Shown piece after piece: positions 23,192 to 37,619 of a stretch of 64,000 nucleotides of DNA. The position numbers and the translations under genes were made by a program. The notes under the pieces are model-generated. The model was not told the DNA's origin. It saw nothing but the letters and a program-made list of their open reading frames with translations, and searched no databases. Within the stretch, counting starts at the first letter, position 1; each line of letters opens with the position of its first letter. The DNA comes from Xanthomarina gelatinilytica (GTDB lineage Bacteria > Bacteroidota > Bacteroidia > Flavobacteriales > Flavobacteriaceae), in assembly GCF_000348685.1 (NCBI RefSeq), contig NZ_ANLA01000013.1, forward strand, positions 62,001 through 126,000, read 5' to 3'.

Positions 23192-25258
23192 ATGAAGAAG
23201 TTATTTTCTTTAGTCGCTTGTCTCGTTTTTTTCATTGGTTTTTCACAAACCAAGGAACAAGATAGTCTTACCATTCAATTAGCCTTTCAAAATTCCGATA
23301 CCACAAAAATCAAAACCTCTTTATTACTGGTAAAAGTCCTTTACAGGGATCAAGAGTACGACAAAGCATTAAAATACATTTCGCAAACCGAAAAACTGTC
23401 CCAAAAACTAAATTATCAGGATGGCATTGCAGAAATGACCTATTACAAAGCATTGATTTATGCCCTTAAAGACGATTACATCAATGCCAGGGACAATTAT
23501 TTGAAAGCCAAGGAACTATTTATTCAACTTCAAGACACCTTAAACATTGCAAAAGTCAACAACAGCATAGGCTTAAACGAAATTAAAAGAGGCAATTACA
23601 ACGTAGGTTTGCAATATTCGCTTTTAGCGTTAAAAGAGTTTGAAAAACGAAACTTGAAAAAAGAGTTGCGCTCTGCCTACGAATGTCTGGCCAACGCATA
23701 TTACAGCATTAACAATATCCAAAAAGCTACCGAATACTATGTAAAGACTTTGGATATGGAAAGACAAATAAACAACAATGAAGGTTCCATAGAAGTCTTA
23801 AAAAAATTAGCTGAACTATACTCCTTACAAAAAGAATATAGAAAATCCATAGACTATTACGAAAAGGTATTAAAGATGACCTCGGTTGAAAATGATTCCT
23901 TAAGAAGCGAAATCCTGCCCAAGTTGGGAGGAGAATATTTACAGTTTAATGATTATGACAAAGCACTGGAGTATTTGGTTGAAGGGTTAAAATTGAATAG
24001 AAGCCTTGACAATCGTCATGGCATTTTGGTCTCGCTTAACAACCTTGGAAATTTAAACCTACAAAGAAATTTTCTTAAATATGCCGAAATACAGCTTTTG
24101 GAAGCTAAAGACATAGCCAGCGACATAGACGCCAAGAATGAACAGTTAAAAAATTATAGGCTTTTAAAATCATTGGATTCCACCAATAAAAGATTTGATC
24201 GTGCTTTTGTTTGGCAAAGGGAATACTACCAGTTGCAAAACGAACTCACTAAAAAAGAAGCTTTAACACTCATAGAACCAGAGGAACCCATATTAATTGA
24301 CAACTTAAGCATTAACAATCGTAATGAAGATACTGAAACTGTTAACATGGATCCCGATGCTGCTAAAACACAAAAAGAATTTGATAGGTTAAGACTTATA
24401 TTCTATGGGTTGTTAGGAGCTGTGGCCATCCTTTCAACCTTTTTAATTTTAATCTATCTTAAAAGAAATAGCAGATTGCAATACACCAGGGAACTGGAAG
24501 AAAAAAATAAACGTATTGAGATTCAAAACGAAGCTATTTTGGAACAAACCAAACACCTTGAAGATATAAACAAGGTGAAGGACAAATTGTTTTCCATAGT
24601 ATCTCACGATTTAAAAGATTCCTTAACCTCCATTAAAGGTTTTATAGACTTGTTAAAAGACGGCTCTTTAACCCAAGAGGAATTTAAAACCTTAATCCCG
24701 GAATTAAGTGAAAATGCCAACAATGCCTCTTTATTGCTGTTCAACCTATTAAATTGGTCCAAATCTCAAATGCAATCCTTAGAGCCAAGTCCAAGTTTAT
24801 TCGATTTACAGGAAGTCTTTGCAGACAAAATAAATCTACTGGAACAAAAACTGGAAAAGAAAGGCATTATTTTAAGGGATAAAACCTTAAGGGATTTTGT
24901 TTATGCTGATAAAAGTATGGTAGAGATTATTATTCAAAACCTACTTACAAATGCAATAAAATTCAGTAAAAAAGGGGATACCATTACCATTGCCAACCAA
25001 ATTAGTAATGGAAAATCCATCATCAGCATTTCCGATACTGGTGTTGGCATCTCTAAGGAAAACCAGCAAAAATTATTCAAAAATTCATCGTTTACAACTG
25101 TTGGCACCCAAAACGAAAAAGGGACTGGTTTAGGATTGACCATCTGCAAAGAACTGGTAGACTTAAACCATGGAAAAATTTGGGTGGAAAGCGATTTAAA
25201 TGTTGGAACAACGTTTTATGTGGAATTGCCAAAATCCAATCCTCAAAATCAATCTTAG
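23192..25258 (+). CDS. TPR-domain sensor histidine kinase
   Basis: The 688-residue protein has a signal peptide (about 1-18, FFIGFSQ), then seven or so tetratricopeptide repeats (about 40-330) predicted in the periplasm. A single transmembrane helix follows (about 405-425) and then a coiled coil. The HisKA domain has FSIVSHDLKDSLTSIKG with His472 as the phospho-acceptor, and the HATPase domain carries IIIQNLLTNAIKFSKK (N box), SISDTGVGIS (G1) and GTGLGLTICKELV (G2). No receiver or DNA-binding domain is fused and none is adjacent, so it is an orphan kinase. Its stop overlaps ctlX by 4 bp. Confidence 0.92.
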   Translation: MKKLFSLVACLVFFIGFSQTKEQDSLTIQLAFQNSDTTKIKTSLLLVKVLYRDQEYDKALKYISQTEKLSQKLNYQDGIAEMTYYKALIYALKDDYINARDNYLKAKELFIQLQDTLNIAKVNNSIGLNEIKRGNYNVGLQYSLLALKEFEKRNLKKELRSAYECLANAYYSINNIQKATEYYVKTLDMERQINNNEGSIEVLKKLAELYSLQKEYRKSIDYYEKVLKMTSVENDSLRSEILPKLGGEYLQFNDYDKALEYLVEGLKLNRSLDNRHGILVSLNNLGNLNLQRNFLKYAEIQLLEAKDIASDIDAKNEQLKNYRLLKSLDSTNKRFDRAFVWQREYYQLQNELTKKEALTLIEPEEPILIDNLSINNRNEDTETVNMDPDAAKTQKEFDRLRLIFYGLLGAVAILSTFLILIYLKRNSRLQYTRELEEKNKRIEIQNEAILEQTKHLEDINKVKDKLFSIVSHDLKDSLTSIKGFIDLLKDGSLTQEEFKTLIPELSENANNASLLLFNLLNWSKSQMQSLEPSPSLFDLQEVFADKINLLEQKLEKKGIILRDKTLRDFVYADKSMVEIIIQNLLTNAIKFSKKGDTITIANQISNGKSIISISDTGVGISKENQQKLFKNSSFTTVGTQNEKGTGLGLTICKELVDLNHGKIWVESDLNVGTTFYVELPKSNPQNQS

Positions 25259-26187
25259 TTTTTAGGCAAAAATATTTCAGCCATCATACAACGTGCACTA
25301 CCTCCACCACAGGTCTCAATGGTTTCCAAAGAACTTGAAAGGATGTCACAATGCTTTTCAATGGTTTTTATTTGAGCAGTCGTTAAAGAATCGTGAGCAG
25401 CTTGGCTCATTACCAAAAAACGTTTATTGTCCAACCCTCTAACCTGCAACATGTTTCCTGCAAAGTTGGCCACCTGATCTTCTGTAATTACAATCACTTC
25501 TTTGCCATCTTCTTTTAAATGTTTCAAAACATTTTTGCGCTCTTTTTTATCGTCTATACTATCCAGACAAATTACAGCAAAGGTTTCTGCCAAACACATC
25601 ATCACATTGGTATGGTAAATAGGTTTACGTTCCCCTTCTACCGTTTGGTAGGCCGTGAAGATAACCGGAGTATATTCAAAATCTTCACAAAACTCTATAA
25701 ACAAGTCCTCATCTGCTCGAGCCGATAACGCACAATAGGCTTTTTTGTTTACTCGATCCAACAACAAACTTCCTGTACCTTCAAGAAAAATACCTTCTTT
25801 TTCTGCGCTTGTGTAATCCACAATGTTTTCAATAGTAAAACCTTGCGCTTCAATATGCTCTAAAATATCCTCTCTACGTTCTTTTCTACGGTTCTCGGCA
25901 AACATAGGGTATAAAGCCACATCGCCATTTTCATGGAAACTTACCCAATTGTTGGGAAATACAGAATCTGGAGTGTCCAATTCCTTGTTGTCGCTTACCA
26001 CAATAACATGAACACCCACTGCTTGAAGCTTCTCTACAAACGCATCAAATTCCTCTTGAGCCTTGGTATTAATAACAGCATTTTTTAAATCTAAGTCTTC
26101 CTGAAAATAATTGTTAACTGCTGTTTGCTCATTCATCCTAAATTGAACAGGACGAATCATTAAGATGGTATTTGTGGTTTGATTCAT
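25255..26187 (-). CDS. ctlX: Arginine deiminase/amidinotransferase-family protein, CtlX-like
   Basis: The 310-residue protein belongs to the guanidino-modifying (arginine deiminase) superfamily and matches the citrulline-utilisation hydrolase CtlX group. TPDSVFPNNWVSFH carries the active-site Asp; YHTNVMMCLAE supplies the His; ETCGGGSARCMMAEIFLP holds the catalytic Cys. The role is probably hydrolysis of a citrulline- or arginine-like compound to an amine product and ammonia. A promoter TTG-N19-TAATTTTG precedes it. It is convergent with the sensor kinase. Confidence 0.82.
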   Translation of the reverse strand: MNQTTNTILMIRPVQFRMNEQTAVNNYFQEDLDLKNAVINTKAQEEFDAFVEKLQAVGVHVIVVSDNKELDTPDSVFPNNWVSFHENGDVALYPMFAENRRKERREDILEHIEAQGFTIENIVDYTSAEKEGIFLEGTGSLLLDRVNKKAYCALSARADEDLFIEFCEDFEYTPVIFTAYQTVEGERKPIYHTNVMMCLAETFAVICLDSIDDKKERKNVLKHLKEDGKEVIVITEDQVANFAGNMLQVRGLDNKRFLVMSQAAHDSLTTAQIKTIEKHCDILSSSLETIETCGGGSARCMMAEIFLPKN

Positions 26188-26811: not shown

Positions 26812-26832
26812 GAGTATCCAAACCTAAAAAAG

Positions 26833-26867
26833 AAACAGGCTTTAAGCAACTTGCTTAAAGCCTGTTT
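26833..26867. terminator. Bidirectional terminator between DUF3124 gene and the haloperoxidase-fusion gene
   Basis: AAACAGGCTTTAAG (26833-26846) pairs with CTTAAAGCCTGTTT (26854-26867) with a seven-base loop (CAACTTG). It is flanked by A on the left and T on the right and so can terminate both convergent genes. Confidence 0.85.
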
Positions 26868-26887
26868 TATTTAAAGCATGGAAAGGC

Positions 26888-29800
26888 TTAACTGCCTTTT
26901 TTAACCATGATTTTTTTAGTATAACCATTCCATCTTAAAAAGTAAATACCAGATGAAGTACCTGAAGGGATGGTGACTCTACTTGAATTATTTTGGTAAT
27001 TAAAATCCACTTGGTTGATTTTAATAAGTCTTCCACTTATATCAAACATCTCAAATGTATCAGATGGTTTTACATTCGTAACATTAATATATTCTCCAGA
27101 ATTTACAGGGTTCGGATAAACATTGGACAATTCATAGTCTTTTATCCCAATGGTATTCGGATAAAAGTATGGCAAGGCAAAATCATACGCCTCCACGCCA
27201 ATTTCTTCACCAGCTAAACGTCCTGGAATGTCATCGGCTGGCGGATGGATACCTCCCCAGATTCTGGACAAACTACATTGGTCTGAAGCATCTCTATAAG
27301 TCGCCCATTGTAATACTACATCTACAGAAGGGCCCTCTTCAAACACTAAAAATTCATTTTGTCTGGCATGAAATTCTCCCATACCTCCTGGAAAATACTC
27401 GTCGCCTGTAATTAATGTCATGACTTCAGCAGCAGCTCTGGAATAGGTGGAGTGACCAGATACATAACCTGCAAATGGAGGTGTTACAAATGAAGGTCTT
27501 TGGTAAGGCCACCAATCTTCAGACAACACCCAACCTACACCTGCTGTGTCTGTGTCTGTATTGTTTACATAGTCATGACCTCTCCAAGTATACAATTTAA
27601 TTTTGCCTACATGTTGATCTAAAGCACCTGCCAATGGATCTCCAGACTCAACGACCTCAATGTATCCTGGCTGTAAAGGAATCCCTTCTGGATCGTAATT
27701 GCTTAAAGACTGATTGGTGCTCTGCCCTTTGGATGCCATATAACGAATGGCCGAAATTGGTCGGATATAATCATACCAACCCTTAATTCCCCAAGCAGTG
27801 ATAGCCGAATCGTGCATGGCGCCACCAAGTACAAAGTAACTTTTCACATCCCACTCCAAAGGATCCAGTTCTGGGCCCTGACCATTGAACCTTTTTTCAA
27901 ACAGTGGATGATCAGACACATAATTCAAAAGTGTAAACCAGTGTCCTGGTGGTGTTTCAGAGTCTGGACCATCTGCCCAAAACTCTGCTAGAACCCTTGT
28001 ATAATCTCCCCTAGGAACCATCTGCTGGGCATAAGGCTGCCCTGTAACCGGATTCACGCTTCTTCCTGTACTGATATCGCCTCCATTTAAAACATCGTAA
28101 AAACTAGGGTATTGTAAATAACTTGTTGGTAAGGAAGAGGCTGAAATATTACCAATGGAATTAGGGGAAATATCCCACATCACACCATCGGAAGGGTCTA
28201 AATGAGAGCCCCAAATAGATACCAACGAGAAATTCCATTTATAAGCGTTGCTCGATTGACTGGTACCTGTATTGTCTAAATAAGGAGGATCTCCTGGATC
28301 TTTATAAACCAGATAGTTATGACCATCTCTTTGATGGGTAGTCATATCTGTTGAAGATAAAGCAAATGTATTTACATTTCCCCATTCTGGTCCCAAAAAA
28401 GGAATCATGGCACCATCAATAAGATTTCCACTTTGATCGATATAGGTATCCAAACTTAACGATTGCCATCTGTTTGGAAAAATAATGGTATTATCTTCGT
28501 AAGCTGGAGCCAATGGAGGGTTAACGGGTTCGTAATAAGCATTATCATAACCGGAAGCTTCCCTGGAACCATCCGTCAAGCCATAACTGATTATCGTCTG
28601 CGCCACATAATTCCCTAAATCGGCTGCATTTCCAGATTGATAATTGGTAGAAGTATAATTGATAGGATAATTTAATTCATCCATTAAATAATCGAAACGT
28701 TCTTGAGATTCTTGGGCTCCAGGCGAATTGGCAAACCTTTCGCTTAACAGTCTGTACATGGCATAACTAATTGCCTTGTTGTTAGATGCCTGATTTCCTT
28801 CGCTTGGAGTAAAGTTATCCAAAACACTTACAAAACCATGAACCTGGTTCCCCATTAAATAAGGTACTGCAGTAGGATCGTAAATAGCCCAAATATCATA
28901 CATGGCCACACTGGAATGAAACAAATTCCTAGCATGTACTGTTGGTCTGGCAAAATCATTTCTAATTGCGTCCAAGAGTGCTTCATTCCATAATCTTGCA
29001 ACAGATATATGGTCTTCGGTTTGATTCAAATCCAGATCTACAGCTAAGGTTACCAAAGGACTATAACAAGTGCCATCGTTCTCTATAACCGAAACCGTTC
29101 CAGCAGTATTTACACCCCATCTTACGGTAATCTGTCCAGTTCCCTGACCAGAAACCAACTCGCCACCAGAGACCTCCCAAAAAGTTGATGAACCAGATGT
29201 GGTTGGATAACTGTAAATGGCTTCCCTTAAAAATCCTGAAAACGTTGGACCAGAGATCACGCCAGACGGTAAATAGGTACAGGAATTATCATTCACGGTT
29301 GCCGATGGGTTATAAGAACAGGATTGTGGATCTGTACAACCATATATTTTAACACTAGGTGATACTGAAAGTGTGGCCAAACCAACACCTTCTGTTGCCT
29401 TTACGTGGGTATCGGCTGTAATGTTGTGATAGGTCTCCACCAAGCCCGATGGCCATTTTATGGTTAAATCTGTTACAGTGGTTTCAGCATTTAAGCCAAA
29501 CACAACGGGTTTGATACTTTGTCCCAAAAACCCGACACCATTAAAATATTTCTTGAAAGTTCCACTATTGGTTACAATGGTCAACTCGGTACCAATGGCA
29601 CTTCTGTTTGAAGTAACCCCTTCTAAAGACACTTTTAAATAATGGATGGCATTGGGCTGATCAAAACTAAGGGTCTTGTTTTCATATAAATAGGAATGGG
29701 CATCTGTATTTGTTAAAAACAAATCCAAATCGCCATCATTATCATAATCAAAATCCAAAGCTTCATGACTTATGGTTAAATCATATAAATTGGCAGCAAT

Positions 29801-30928
29801 GGTTTCATCTGAAAAATTGTTCAATCCTTCAACATAATTATTTTTAAAATACTTATTGTATTCTGCGCCTCTATTTTCAAACAGGTAACCATTTGCTATA
29901 AACAAATCATCATCGCCATCCAAATCCAAATCGGCAAACTTGGCTCCCCAAGCCCAACCAGCTCCAACAAGATTATTAACCACTGAGTTTTCAAAAAAAG
30001 TATTGTCGCCATTATTGGTATACAATACTTGTTCATCCACTCCTGTGTTATAAATATCAAAAGCGCCATCGTTATTATAGTCTGCAATAGTGATACCCAT
30101 ATCATCTATATGCGTTGTAAAACCATAAGCCATAGCTTGCTCAGAAAAACCTGTTCCTCCTTGATTGATGTACAAATAGTTTCTTTGGGCAAAATCATTG
30201 GCAACATAAAGGTCCATAAACCCATCACTGTTGAAGTCGAATGGAGTTGCTGTAAAACTGTTATGAGGCCAAGATTCATCCATTCCCATACTTACGGTAA
30301 CATCGGTAAAGGTACCGTCTCCGTTGTTTTGATACAATAAGTTTGAAGCACATGCGCCCCAATCACAGATATATATATCTAAAAATCCATCGTTATTGTA
30401 ATCAAACCAGGTAGCACCAGAAAATTGGCATGAATTTGCAACATTGAATCCAGCTGTTGCCGTTACATTTTGAAACGTGCCATCACCTTGATTTCTGTAT
30501 AGTAGTACATTGAAGGTATTGGTAAAAAACAAATCAGGAAAGCCATCATTGTCATAATCTCCCCAATAAGCACCAATTTTAAAACCATCGAAAACATAAA
30601 ACTCGCCATCCAGGCTATAATCCTGAATCAACAAGTTTGTCAATCCAGAGGCTACAGTTACATCTGTAAAAGAACCGTCGTCATTGTTCCGGAAAAGCCT
30701 ACTATGGGTTCTTTCTATCCCATTCCTGTCTATGGACTTGGCAACAACAAATAAATCCATGACATTATCGCCATTATAATCTGCAACAGCAACGCCATTG
30801 TTCTGCTCCAAAATTCCAAGACCGGAAATTGCCTCTGCCCTTTCAAAAACCTGGGCAGTTAATTGAAACGAAAAACATGTAAAAATAAGAATGCTATTAA
30901 TTAGTTTTAAATGTAATTTTGTTTTCAT
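26888..30928 (-). CDS. Secreted VCBS/FG-GAP + ASPIC/UnbV + vanadium-haloperoxidase-type fusion with T9SS tail
   Basis: The 1346-residue exoprotein has a signal peptide (1-26, ending LTAQ). Seven calcium-binding FG-GAP/VCBS motifs (for example DYDNDGFPDLFF, DLDLDGDDDLFI) span about 40-430. An ASPIC/UnbV domain lies at about 435-530, then a Cys-rich GCTDPQSCSYNPSATVNDN unit, then a PKD-like domain (about 565-640). The C-terminal half is a vanadium-dependent haloperoxidase-type (PAP2-related) domain with all vanadate ligands: Lys1049 and Arg1056 (KX6RP), Ser1157-Gly-His1159 (VSGH instead of PSGH), Arg1222 and His1228 (SRX5HPPAD). The end (NVYPNPVNSG...) is a type A type IX sorting domain. It probably halogenates, or dephosphorylates a substrate, outside the cell; vanadium loading needs proof. 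Confidence 0.88.
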   Translation of the reverse strand: MKTKLHLKLINSILIFTCFSFQLTAQVFERAEAISGLGILEQNNGVAVADYNGDNVMDLFVVAKSIDRNGIERTHSRLFRNNDDGSFTDVTVASGLTNLLIQDYSLDGEFYVFDGFKIGAYWGDYDNDGFPDLFFTNTFNVLLYRNQGDGTFQNVTATAGFNVANSCQFSGATWFDYNNDGFLDIYICDWGACASNLLYQNNGDGTFTDVTVSMGMDESWPHNSFTATPFDFNSDGFMDLYVANDFAQRNYLYINQGGTGFSEQAMAYGFTTHIDDMGITIADYNNDGAFDIYNTGVDEQVLYTNNGDNTFFENSVVNNLVGAGWAWGAKFADLDLDGDDDLFIANGYLFENRGAEYNKYFKNNYVEGLNNFSDETIAANLYDLTISHEALDFDYDNDGDLDLFLTNTDAHSYLYENKTLSFDQPNAIHYLKVSLEGVTSNRSAIGTELTIVTNSGTFKKYFNGVGFLGQSIKPVVFGLNAETTVTDLTIKWPSGLVETYHNITADTHVKATEGVGLATLSVSPSVKIYGCTDPQSCSYNPSATVNDNSCTYLPSGVISGPTFSGFLREAIYSYPTTSGSSTFWEVSGGELVSGQGTGQITVRWGVNTAGTVSVIENDGTCYSPLVTLAVDLDLNQTEDHISVARLWNEALLDAIRNDFARPTVHARNLFHSSVAMYDIWAIYDPTAVPYLMGNQVHGFVSVLDNFTPSEGNQASNNKAISYAMYRLLSERFANSPGAQESQERFDYLMDELNYPINYTSTNYQSGNAADLGNYVAQTIISYGLTDGSREASGYDNAYYEPVNPPLAPAYEDNTIIFPNRWQSLSLDTYIDQSGNLIDGAMIPFLGPEWGNVNTFALSSTDMTTHQRDGHNYLVYKDPGDPPYLDNTGTSQSSNAYKWNFSLVSIWGSHLDPSDGVMWDISPNSIGNISASSLPTSYLQYPSFYDVLNGGDISTGRSVNPVTGQPYAQQMVPRGDYTRVLAEFWADGPDSETPPGHWFTLLNYVSDHPLFEKRFNGQGPELDPLEWDVKSYFVLGGAMHDSAITAWGIKGWYDYIRPISAIRYMASKGQSTNQSLSNYDPEGIPLQPGYIEVVESGDPLAGALDQHVGKIKLYTWRGHDYVNNTDTDTAGVGWVLSEDWWPYQRPSFVTPPFAGYVSGHSTYSRAAAEVMTLITGDEYFPGGMGEFHARQNEFLVFEEGPSVDVVLQWATYRDASDQCSLSRIWGGIHPPADDIPGRLAGEEIGVEAYDFALPYFYPNTIGIKDYELSNVYPNPVNSGEYINVTNVKPSDTFEMFDISGRLIKINQVDFNYQNNSSRVTIPSGTSSGIYFLRWNGYTKKIMVKKGS

Positions 30929-36377: not shown

Positions 36378-37619
36378 TTAATATTCTGAATAAGCTTCTC
36401 TATCAATATTAAAGGTTAAGGAAAAACGCAAGGTGTTTTCCAATGGGCTAGGTACTTTGGATGCTGAAAATAAATAGGACAAATCAATTCCTATCACATT
36501 GTATTTAAATCCAGCTCCAATGGCAAAAAACTGTCTGGCCCCTTTATCTGGACTCTCATGAAAATATCCTGCTCTAAAAGCAAAGGAGTCTTGGTAGTAA
36601 TATTCGGCTCCTAAGGCCCAAGTCCATTCCTGCATTTCTTCGCTGAAACCTCCTGGTGCATCACCAAAGGATTGAAACATACCCTTTAAAAAGCTTACAT
36701 CGTCATCTTTCCCTTCTATAATATAATCTGGCTCGTAACTGATTACATTATCTATGGATGGATCATATTCTCCATTATCATCTACATCTTCATATACACG
36801 TCTTTCCCCTCTAATTGGTGGTGTAGGTACCAATAGTTTTGTTACCTCTCCCGTTAGGGATATTTTGTTGAAATCGTCCAAAATAAAGTCGAAACCTCCT
36901 CCTAAACGCAGAGTCGTAGGTTGAAAGTTTTCCTGACCTCCTGCATCATACTTAAATTTAGGTCCTATGTTTTGAATGGCAAAACCTAGCCTGGTACGGC
37001 CATTAAAACTATTGTAAGCCTCCTCTTCACTTTGGTAGTACCCAGAAATGTCCACACCAAAGGTACTTGCTGCCTTGGCATCTTGTGTGTCATCTATTTT
37101 TAAATCGGAATTTAAATAACGCATGTTTACTGCCATGGCAAATTGGTCGCTCAACCTTAGCGCATAAGAGACATCCAAAGTAAATTCATTTGGTTTTTTA
37201 ATTAATTCTTCTGAAAATTCATCTTCAACAAATTCAATCTCACCCAAAGAAAAATATTTAAAACTGGCTCCAAAAGCACTTCTTTCGTTCAATCTATTGA
37301 AATATGTAAGGTTTCCTAAAAAAATATCGTTTACCAATTTACTTAAATAGGGCGTGTAACTAATAGCAACACCTTGCTTGGTTTCAGAGAAGGCATATTT
37401 AGAGGCATTCCATTGCTGTGAAAACCCATCCACAGAGGTGGCGACTCCCATGTCTCCCAAAGATGCCGAACGCGCATCTGGAGCAATCAATAAAAAAGGA
37501 ACACCTGTGGTAATGACTCTGGAATCATAAGGATCTGGGGTTATTTCTTCAACAATATTCTGGGCTTGTATTTGAGTAGCAAAAAAGAATGCTGATAGGA
37601 TTAAAAAAGATTTCTTCAT
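36378..37619 (-). CDS. porV: Type IX secretion outer-membrane protein PorV (LptO)
   Basis: PorV is a 14-strand FadL-like barrel that shuttles type IX cargo from the translocon to the PorU attachment complex. The 413-residue protein has a signal peptide (about 1-19, ATQIQAQ) and the family-typical N-terminal VPFLLIAPDARSASLGDMG. QQWNASKYAF follows, and the protein ends with LRFSLTFNIDREAYSEY. It is downstream of porU on the same strand (33 bp) and has its own promoter inside the end of porU. Confidence 0.95.
   Translation of the reverse strand: MKKSFLILSAFFFATQIQAQNIVEEITPDPYDSRVITTGVPFLLIAPDARSASLGDMGVATSVDGFSQQWNASKYAFSETKQGVAISYTPYLSKLVNDIFLGNLTYFNRLNERSAFGASFKYFSLGEIEFVEDEFSEELIKKPNEFTLDVSYALRLSDQFAMAVNMRYLNSDLKIDDTQDAKAASTFGVDISGYYQSEEEAYNSFNGRTRLGFAIQNIGPKFKYDAGGQENFQPTTLRLGGGFDFILDDFNKISLTGEVTKLLVPTPPIRGERRVYEDVDDNGEYDPSIDNVISYEPDYIIEGKDDDVSFLKGMFQSFGDAPGGFSEEMQEWTWALGAEYYYQDSFAFRAGYFHESPDKGARQFFAIGAGFKYNVIGIDLSYLFSASKVPSPLENTLRFSLTFNIDREAYSEY

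Follow-up and report, generated by a model that had tools for sequence, protein, structure and literature searches.

The stretch of DNA analysed here, 64,000 nucleotides of the Xanthomarina gelatinilytica genome (Flavobacteriaceae; RefSeq assembly GCF_000348685.1, contig NZ_ANLA01000013.1, positions 62,001 to 126,000) and referred to below as the window, carries on its minus strand a single gene for a protein of 1346 residues. An earlier note on this DNA had singled out the gene, and its frame, strand, coordinates and length are all as claimed there. Its product joins an N-terminal half with FG-GAP repeats and an ASPIC/UnbV domain to a C-terminal vanadium-dependent haloperoxidase (VHPO) domain, and ends in a sorting tail of the type IX secretion system (T9SS). 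Domains were called with Pfam and NCBIfam profiles on the window protein, and all features are collected in the table.

Table. Features of the fusion gene and of its surroundings in the window.
Feature	Positions in the window	Strand	Basis and remarks
Whole gene, intact frame from ATG to stop, 1346 residues	26888..30928	-	Full-length relatives 80-81% identical in two same-genus genomes
Predicted signal peptide, residues 1-25	30854..30928	-	Cleavage at ...LTA/Q inferred by eye
Seven predicted FG-GAP calcium blades (beta-propeller), residues about 41-422	29663..30808	-	FG-GAP_3 in seven stretches, FG-GAP also matched; predicted structure
ASPIC/UnbV domain (UnbV_ASPIC), residues 444-509	29402..29599	-	E 3.4e-12
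Small three-Cys unit, residues about 528-556	29261..29347	-	C531, C537 and C550 invariant in 57/57 aligned N-halves
PKD-like domain, residues 568-619	29072..29227	-	PKD_6 E 4e-5, 24.3 bits, just below the cut-off of 25
VHPO catalytic domain, residues 632-1262	27143..29035	-	Pfam matches, alignment, predicted fold
Vanadate-pocket stretch: K1049, R1056, S1157-G1158-H1159, R1222, H1228	27245..27784	-	Aligns with Zobellia K-x6-R, SGH and SR-x5-H motifs
T9SS type A sorting tail, residues 1270-1343	26900..27121	-	TIGR04183 E 5.9e-9; PF18962 E 7e-8
Inverted repeat between fusion gene and DUF3124 gene	26828..26872	.	22-nt arms, 1 nt apart; likely terminator
Dimethylarginine dimethylaminohydrolase-type gene	25255-26187	-	PF19420 E 4e-114
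PorV gene	36378-37619	-	PF19572 E 3e-130
C25 peptidase gene, 1292 residues	37653-41531	-	Pfam; PorU-type by our reading

The modules named in the earlier note were recovered, some with adjustments. Seven calcium motifs had been counted, and seven DxDxDG-type motifs indeed start at residues 50, 124, 176, 231, 283, 333 and 394, but only six of them fit the strict pattern, the first being the looser DYNGDNVMD. The ASPIC/UnbV module is present, and so is the Cys-rich unit, to which C621 within the PKD-like part adds a fourth cysteine; the PKD-like domain itself is matched, though under the cut-off. The sorting tail clears its curated cut-off (35.8 bits against 23 for TIGR04183), and Q26, which would become the first residue after signal peptide cleavage, is invariant in all 57 aligned N-halves. 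Judging from the predicted signal peptide and the tail, we have high confidence that the protein is designed for export, as the earlier note had proposed for a T9SS-type protein with a VHPO domain. The source genome holds one full copy of the gene; two other matches share one frame of 815 residues and extend over the propeller and ASPIC parts only.

Within the catalytic half, DUF6851 matches residues 674-803 and the best stretch of the VCPO_2nd match covers residues 1155-1228. The vanadate ligands listed in the earlier note are at the positions named there, and together with G1158 they are identical in all 92 aligned family frames, an alignment that takes in the window protein and in which some genomes occur twice, having been retrieved from two collections. 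The patterns K-x6-RP, SGH and SR-x5-H occur in 167 of 167 VHPO frames (first-match patterns, duplicates counted). The residue preceding SGH had been described as deviating from a usual PSGH; this has to be corrected, since it is V in 76 of the 92 frames, I in 8, L in 8 and P in none, and the Zobellia iodoperoxidase has TSGH. In this region the Zobellia enzyme TPPFPEYTSGHS aligns with the window protein TPPFAGYVSGHS.

The structure prediction that the earlier note had called for agrees with these alignments. An AlphaFold2 model of residues 632-1262, built from 62 sequences (pLDDT 87.9, pTM 0.92), retrieved NapH1 (5.1e-17), XhnO11 (1.3e-16) and NapH3 as its top ranks in Foldseek, with seven chains between E 5e-17 and 6e-16. 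These were followed by the Zobellia iodoperoxidase (5e-11) and the fungal chloroperoxidase of Curvularia (7e-11); among the best 50 of 98 matches, the top-scoring bromoperoxidase of algae or Acaryochloris reached 4e-3, the top lipid phosphatase 1.1 and the top acid phosphatase 1.5. Furthermore, a profile search of PDB sequences at E 0.01 returned five matches, all of the VHPO family (three named vanadium or vanadium-dependent haloperoxidase, besides NapH3 and NapH1).

The VHPO pocket is shared with phosphatases of the PAP2 superfamily, which speaks for a vanadate-free acid or lipid phosphatase, as do weak PAP2 matches below the cut-off in some relatives and the fact that a vanadium apochloroperoxidase catalyses dephosphorylation (structure title, 3bb0). 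Against this stand the Foldseek scores, with VHPO folds at 5e-17 and phosphatases at 1.1 or worse, and the profiles: VCPO_2nd matches the window protein, whereas PAP2 does not at E 0.1. We rejected the phosphatase reading on the Foldseek scores and give it hardly any credence. Hence, we hold with high confidence that the predicted fold of the C-terminal domain is that of a VHPO and not of a phosphatase.

The same fold search raises a second possibility, namely that the domain is homologous to VHPOs but has a chemistry that does not involve halide, such as a rearrangement like that of NapH3 or the selective oxidation of a specific substrate, since the closest folds include those of NapH3 and NapH1. 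However, NapH3 has SGF where the window protein has SGH, and H1159 is kept with the other pocket residues throughout the family alignment. In addition, the window protein appears to be exported, whereas a pathway enzyme would act on a metabolite inside the cell. We therefore consider non-halide chemistry quite improbable and haloperoxidase activity of the catalytic domain likely.

The N-terminal half was modelled as well (residues 26-632, 57 sequences, pLDDT 93.7, pTM 0.88). Its best PDB match is murine CRTAC1 (9etn, Foldseek E 5.4e-25), followed at E 6e-11 and worse by PVL-type lectins from fungi that bind GlcNAc. Many Asp residues of the DxDxDG motifs are invariant among the 57 aligned N-halves. 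According to an excerpt of one report, such motifs are calcium sites on the propeller blades of integrin, PilY1, rhamnogalacturonan lyase and PVL lectin (PMC3123361). FG-GAP repeats are thus present, as the earlier note had it, yet on the basis of the model this half is better described as a CRTAC1-like predicted calcium propeller with ASPIC than as a VCBS repeat scaffold.

The joining of these modules had seemed unusual, a claim that fails because the architecture is common in the family. Among 299 Flavobacteriaceae genomes, 89 had a family match at E 1e-20, and the 103 matches listed from this family comprise 50 of fused size (at least 1250 residues), 46 of 595-883 residues and 7 fragments or distant matches, a split made by hand from frame lengths. 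A contig scan of genomes found 458 relatives, of which the best 80 were kept; loci are labelled here with L-numbers (L011, L169 and so on). The first 112 loci contain 92 VHPO frames, of which 84 also span the N-half (including the frame-broken L059) and five are unfused (L011, L012, L013, L111 and L112); L048 (a fused gene with a broken frame) as well as L094 and L102 (both truncated by contig ends) were not counted as unfused. When the C-terminal half is compared, the closest relatives that have a name are Xanthomarina sp. F2636L (83%) and strain LYZ1037 (81%). The propeller-ASPIC-VHPO fusion is therefore standard in the window protein's branch of the Flavobacteriaceae. The earlier note had asked whether relatives share the architecture with a known function; the architecture is indeed common, but a known function was not found.

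Unfused VHPOs of the same family are mostly 720-770 residues long, and most have a sorting tail. A deeply diverged short form of 638-641 residues, without the tail, occurs at L198 (4951-6864) and L199 (12997-14919), where no propeller gene was found in the fetched flanks. In Wenyingzhuangia marina (L104, frames from 5105 and 9140), two fused genes stand in tandem with identical VHPO domains and diverged N-halves, possibly the result of recent gene conversion of the catalytic half. Plasmids yielded distant matches only, in 9 of 72,556 records and at 24-32% identity, three of them annotated as vanadium-dependent haloperoxidase.

How the two halves came together was addressed by comparing their trees (86 rows for the VHPO half and 74 for the N-half, then 38 rows each under a mixture model), and the two trees disagree. 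The ranges of L075 and L093 had been mis-set by spurious profile matches in the larger trees; both are absent from the 38-row sets. In the 38-row VHPO tree, a branch with support 97 separates the 19 main fused rows from all others, and joining L169 to this main set was rejected (p 2e-74), joining L171 weakly so (p 0.016). For the N-half, the main set together with L169 was likewise rejected (p 2e-108), as was the main set with L171 (p 8e-4); the main set itself is not monophyletic in the best 38-row tree, yet its monophyly was not rejected (p 0.35). Earlier approximately unbiased tests on the VHPO half (p 2e-63 and 8e-8) were set aside, because the fused rows held together in them excluded L180, which is unfused yet lies inside the fused clade, and they were repeated on 38 rows without L180. 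A 62-row set, the sole source of the following tests and still containing L075 and L093, rejected all 42 fused N-halves as one group (p 1e-58), the main set with L108/L109 (p 2e-5) and the main set with L049/L077 (p 5e-4). All these p-values are optimistic, since the groups were named after the trees had been seen.

Both halves of L169 and L171 fall outside the main clade. In these two genes the gap between the propeller-ASPIC and VHPO matches is only 12 and 14 residues and the junctions lack the Cys/PKD linker, whereas the median gap in 113 fused frames is 117 residues (some gaps being mis-set by overlapping matches). Trees and junctions together suggest that L169 and L171 are separate fusions besides the main one. 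By contrast, L108/L109 and L049/L077 have their VHPO within the main clade and their N-half outside it, which reads as the replacement of the N-half by a foreign one; the Cys unit is kept in L109 and L049, and PKD_6 matches L109 and L077. The L180 gene, which is also the one at L011, encodes an unfused VHPO that retains a remnant of the PKD part, and reads as a loss of the N-half.

A further arrangement was found among 40 loci with unfused VHPOs. In four of them (L195, L196, L197 and L200, all from small, incomplete assemblies), a propeller-ASPIC gene lies upstream of the VHPO gene on the same strand, at 26-35 nt in two and about 1.6-1.7 kb in two (stop-to-stop frames). Their VHPOs lack the T9SS tail and form one clade, such that the two-gene arrangement counts as one event. 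Altogether, the two halves appear to have been brought together more than once in evolution, and such recurrence argues for functional coupling.

We thus think it rather probable that the window protein is an exported VHPO carried and positioned by its CRTAC1-like module. A signal peptide would bring it across the inner membrane and the type IX system across the outer membrane. Vanadate would be bound through H1228 and held by K1049, R1056, S1157/G1158 and R1222, and with hydrogen peroxide the domain would oxidise halide to a hypohalous species. Bromide or iodide may be favoured over chloride, though only as a prior. According to an excerpt of one paper, the residues that decide halide choice in VHPOs are largely unknown (PMC13198595), which is why we leave the halide unassigned beyond this prior. 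The seven-bladed calcium propeller with ASPIC would hold or direct the enzyme, probably via a glycan or surface ligand, so that a short-lived oxidant is made at a chosen place; targeting of this kind is plausible. Quenching of signals, which the earlier note had brought up, is only one possible use of hypohalous products.

Several observations weigh against this reading. With bacterial VHPO chains, Foldseek gives moderate TM-scores (0.49-0.56, normalised by query length) at an identity of 15-19%, so the substrate is not transferable from known VHPOs, and one of the nearest folds, NapH3, belongs to a homologue of VHPOs whose reaction is a rearrangement (structure title). The full-length gene was present in three of eight sampled same-genus genomes, one of the other five being only 75% complete, and the window gene's own neighbours show no link to halogens. 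Each of the separate fusions is known from a single genome, and the VHPO half sets L171 apart only weakly. No N-half gene was found in the fetched flanks of 36 of the 40 unfused loci. Finally, nearly half of the family matches (46/103) are of unfused size, which means that the N-half is not required for the enzyme.

This last point also bears on the possibility that the VHPO is a real haloperoxidase, while the N-half is merely an accreted, T9SS-borne accessory, with the pairing repeating since both gene types are common. In fact, 76 of 100 Flavobacteriaceae genomes contain ASPIC domains, with a maximum of 17 copies, and ASPIC-propellers are also joined to other non-catalytic parts, e.g. fn3 (L029) and PPC (L027). 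However, the separate fusions keep the order propeller, ASPIC, VHPO and tail, and one clade has both halves as nearby genes. Moreover, judged by frame length only, the ASPIC frames among the matches listed by E-value are mainly about 536-752 and 1020-1210 residues long, with one of 1356 residues that has the size of the VHPO fusion, and thus the module does not look broadly joined to enzymes. Accretion seems to us unlikely, though far from negligible. Going beyond an exported and positioned haloperoxidase, we suggest, tentatively and at less than even confidence, that the propeller-ASPIC module is specifically dedicated to partnering these haloperoxidases and places or regulates the halide-oxidising domain at a surface. 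Selection would then have assembled the pair several times (three or more fusions, two N-half exchanges and one two-gene arrangement). In view of the porphyranase locus L086/L098 described below, the hypohalous chemistry may help some bacteria to handle algal material.

The window gene is flanked on one side by SDR, M28 peptidase, PDH, PorV and C25 peptidase genes and on the other by genes for a DUF3124 protein and a dimethylarginine-hydrolase-type protein, as assigned by Pfam except for the PDH genes, which were named by eye. The PorV and C25 peptidase genes lie upstream of the fusion gene, 5.4-10.6 kb away. Xanthomarina, Bizionia, many Winogradskyella and related loci share the order PDH-M28-SDR-fusion gene, SDR occurring in 29, M28 in 28 and PdhC in 27 of the 80 loci, and a gene similar to the dimethylarginine dimethylaminohydrolase type in six. 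Such a neighbourhood reflects a stable position on the chromosome and is hardly informative about function. The stretch scanned for terminators contains three terminator-like sites, no more than its shuffled versions (mean 2.9).

A SusC-like gene cluster occurs in the flanks of 7 of the 80 loci, a frequency that we take to be near chance by a rough estimate of genomic gene numbers, and L077 also has SusD. Since SusC-like genes nearby are not clearly above chance, we do not claim a general link of the family to polysaccharide loci. In one Seonamhaeicola assembly (L086 5126-12658, L098 1395-12885), two VHPO fusion genes about 11 kb apart adjoin a SusD protein, a TonB-plug protein and a T9SS beta-porphyranase, and this single locus is likely one for the use of porphyran, a red-algal polysaccharide. 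At L077 (9143-13982), the fusion gene is followed by a run of four AhpC/TSA-redoxin proteins, of which three match DUF4369 above the cut-off, and redoxin proteins are also encoded beside L049 and L101.

Full-text literature searches, from whose coverage most subscription journals are absent, returned no paper on the propeller-ASPIC-VHPO architecture among the matches listed. What is new here is that the trees of the two halves disagree, with separate fusions, N-half exchange and a two-gene arrangement. To our knowledge, the job of the ASPIC/UnbV-propeller module is still open in animals and bacteria. If the proposed role is true, this module gains a catalytic partner and a direct assay, and halogen cycling and the chemistry of contact between bacteria and algae would have to include a widespread class of halide oxidisers that marine bacteria export. 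In excerpts of the respective reports, one Zobellia iodoperoxidase is upregulated on the brown alga A. nodosum (PMC9296495), an iodine-accumulating Arenibacter carries homologues of the Zobellia iodoperoxidases (PMC5064120), and a diatom haloperoxidase system inactivates acyl-homoserine lactones (PMC3917277). These reports illustrate the capabilities of such enzymes and do not count as evidence on the window protein.

Among known systems, NapH1 (3w36), XhnO11 (9l8x) and NapH3 (8cxl) provide the best fold matches and are among the best profile matches, but their chains have 478-531 residues without extra modules and are only 16-19% identical. The NapH enzymes belong to natural-product pathways. 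Napyradiomycin is named in an excerpt of PMC11871015. CRTAC1 (9etn) and other ASPIC/UnbV proteins share propeller and ASPIC over the N-half, whereas the solved CRTAC1 chain of 586 residues lacks a haloperoxidase domain. Conversely, the unfused VHPOs of the same family have the same catalytic domain but neither propeller, ASPIC nor Cys part. The iodoperoxidase of Zobellia galactanivorans (4cit/4usz) is, like the window protein, a VHPO of a marine member of the Flavobacteriaceae with K-x6-R, SGH and SR-x5-H, and TPPF-x-x-Y-x-SGHS is common to both; it differs in that its solved chain of 458 residues, 15-16% identical over the fold, is without FG-GAP, ASPIC and PKD.

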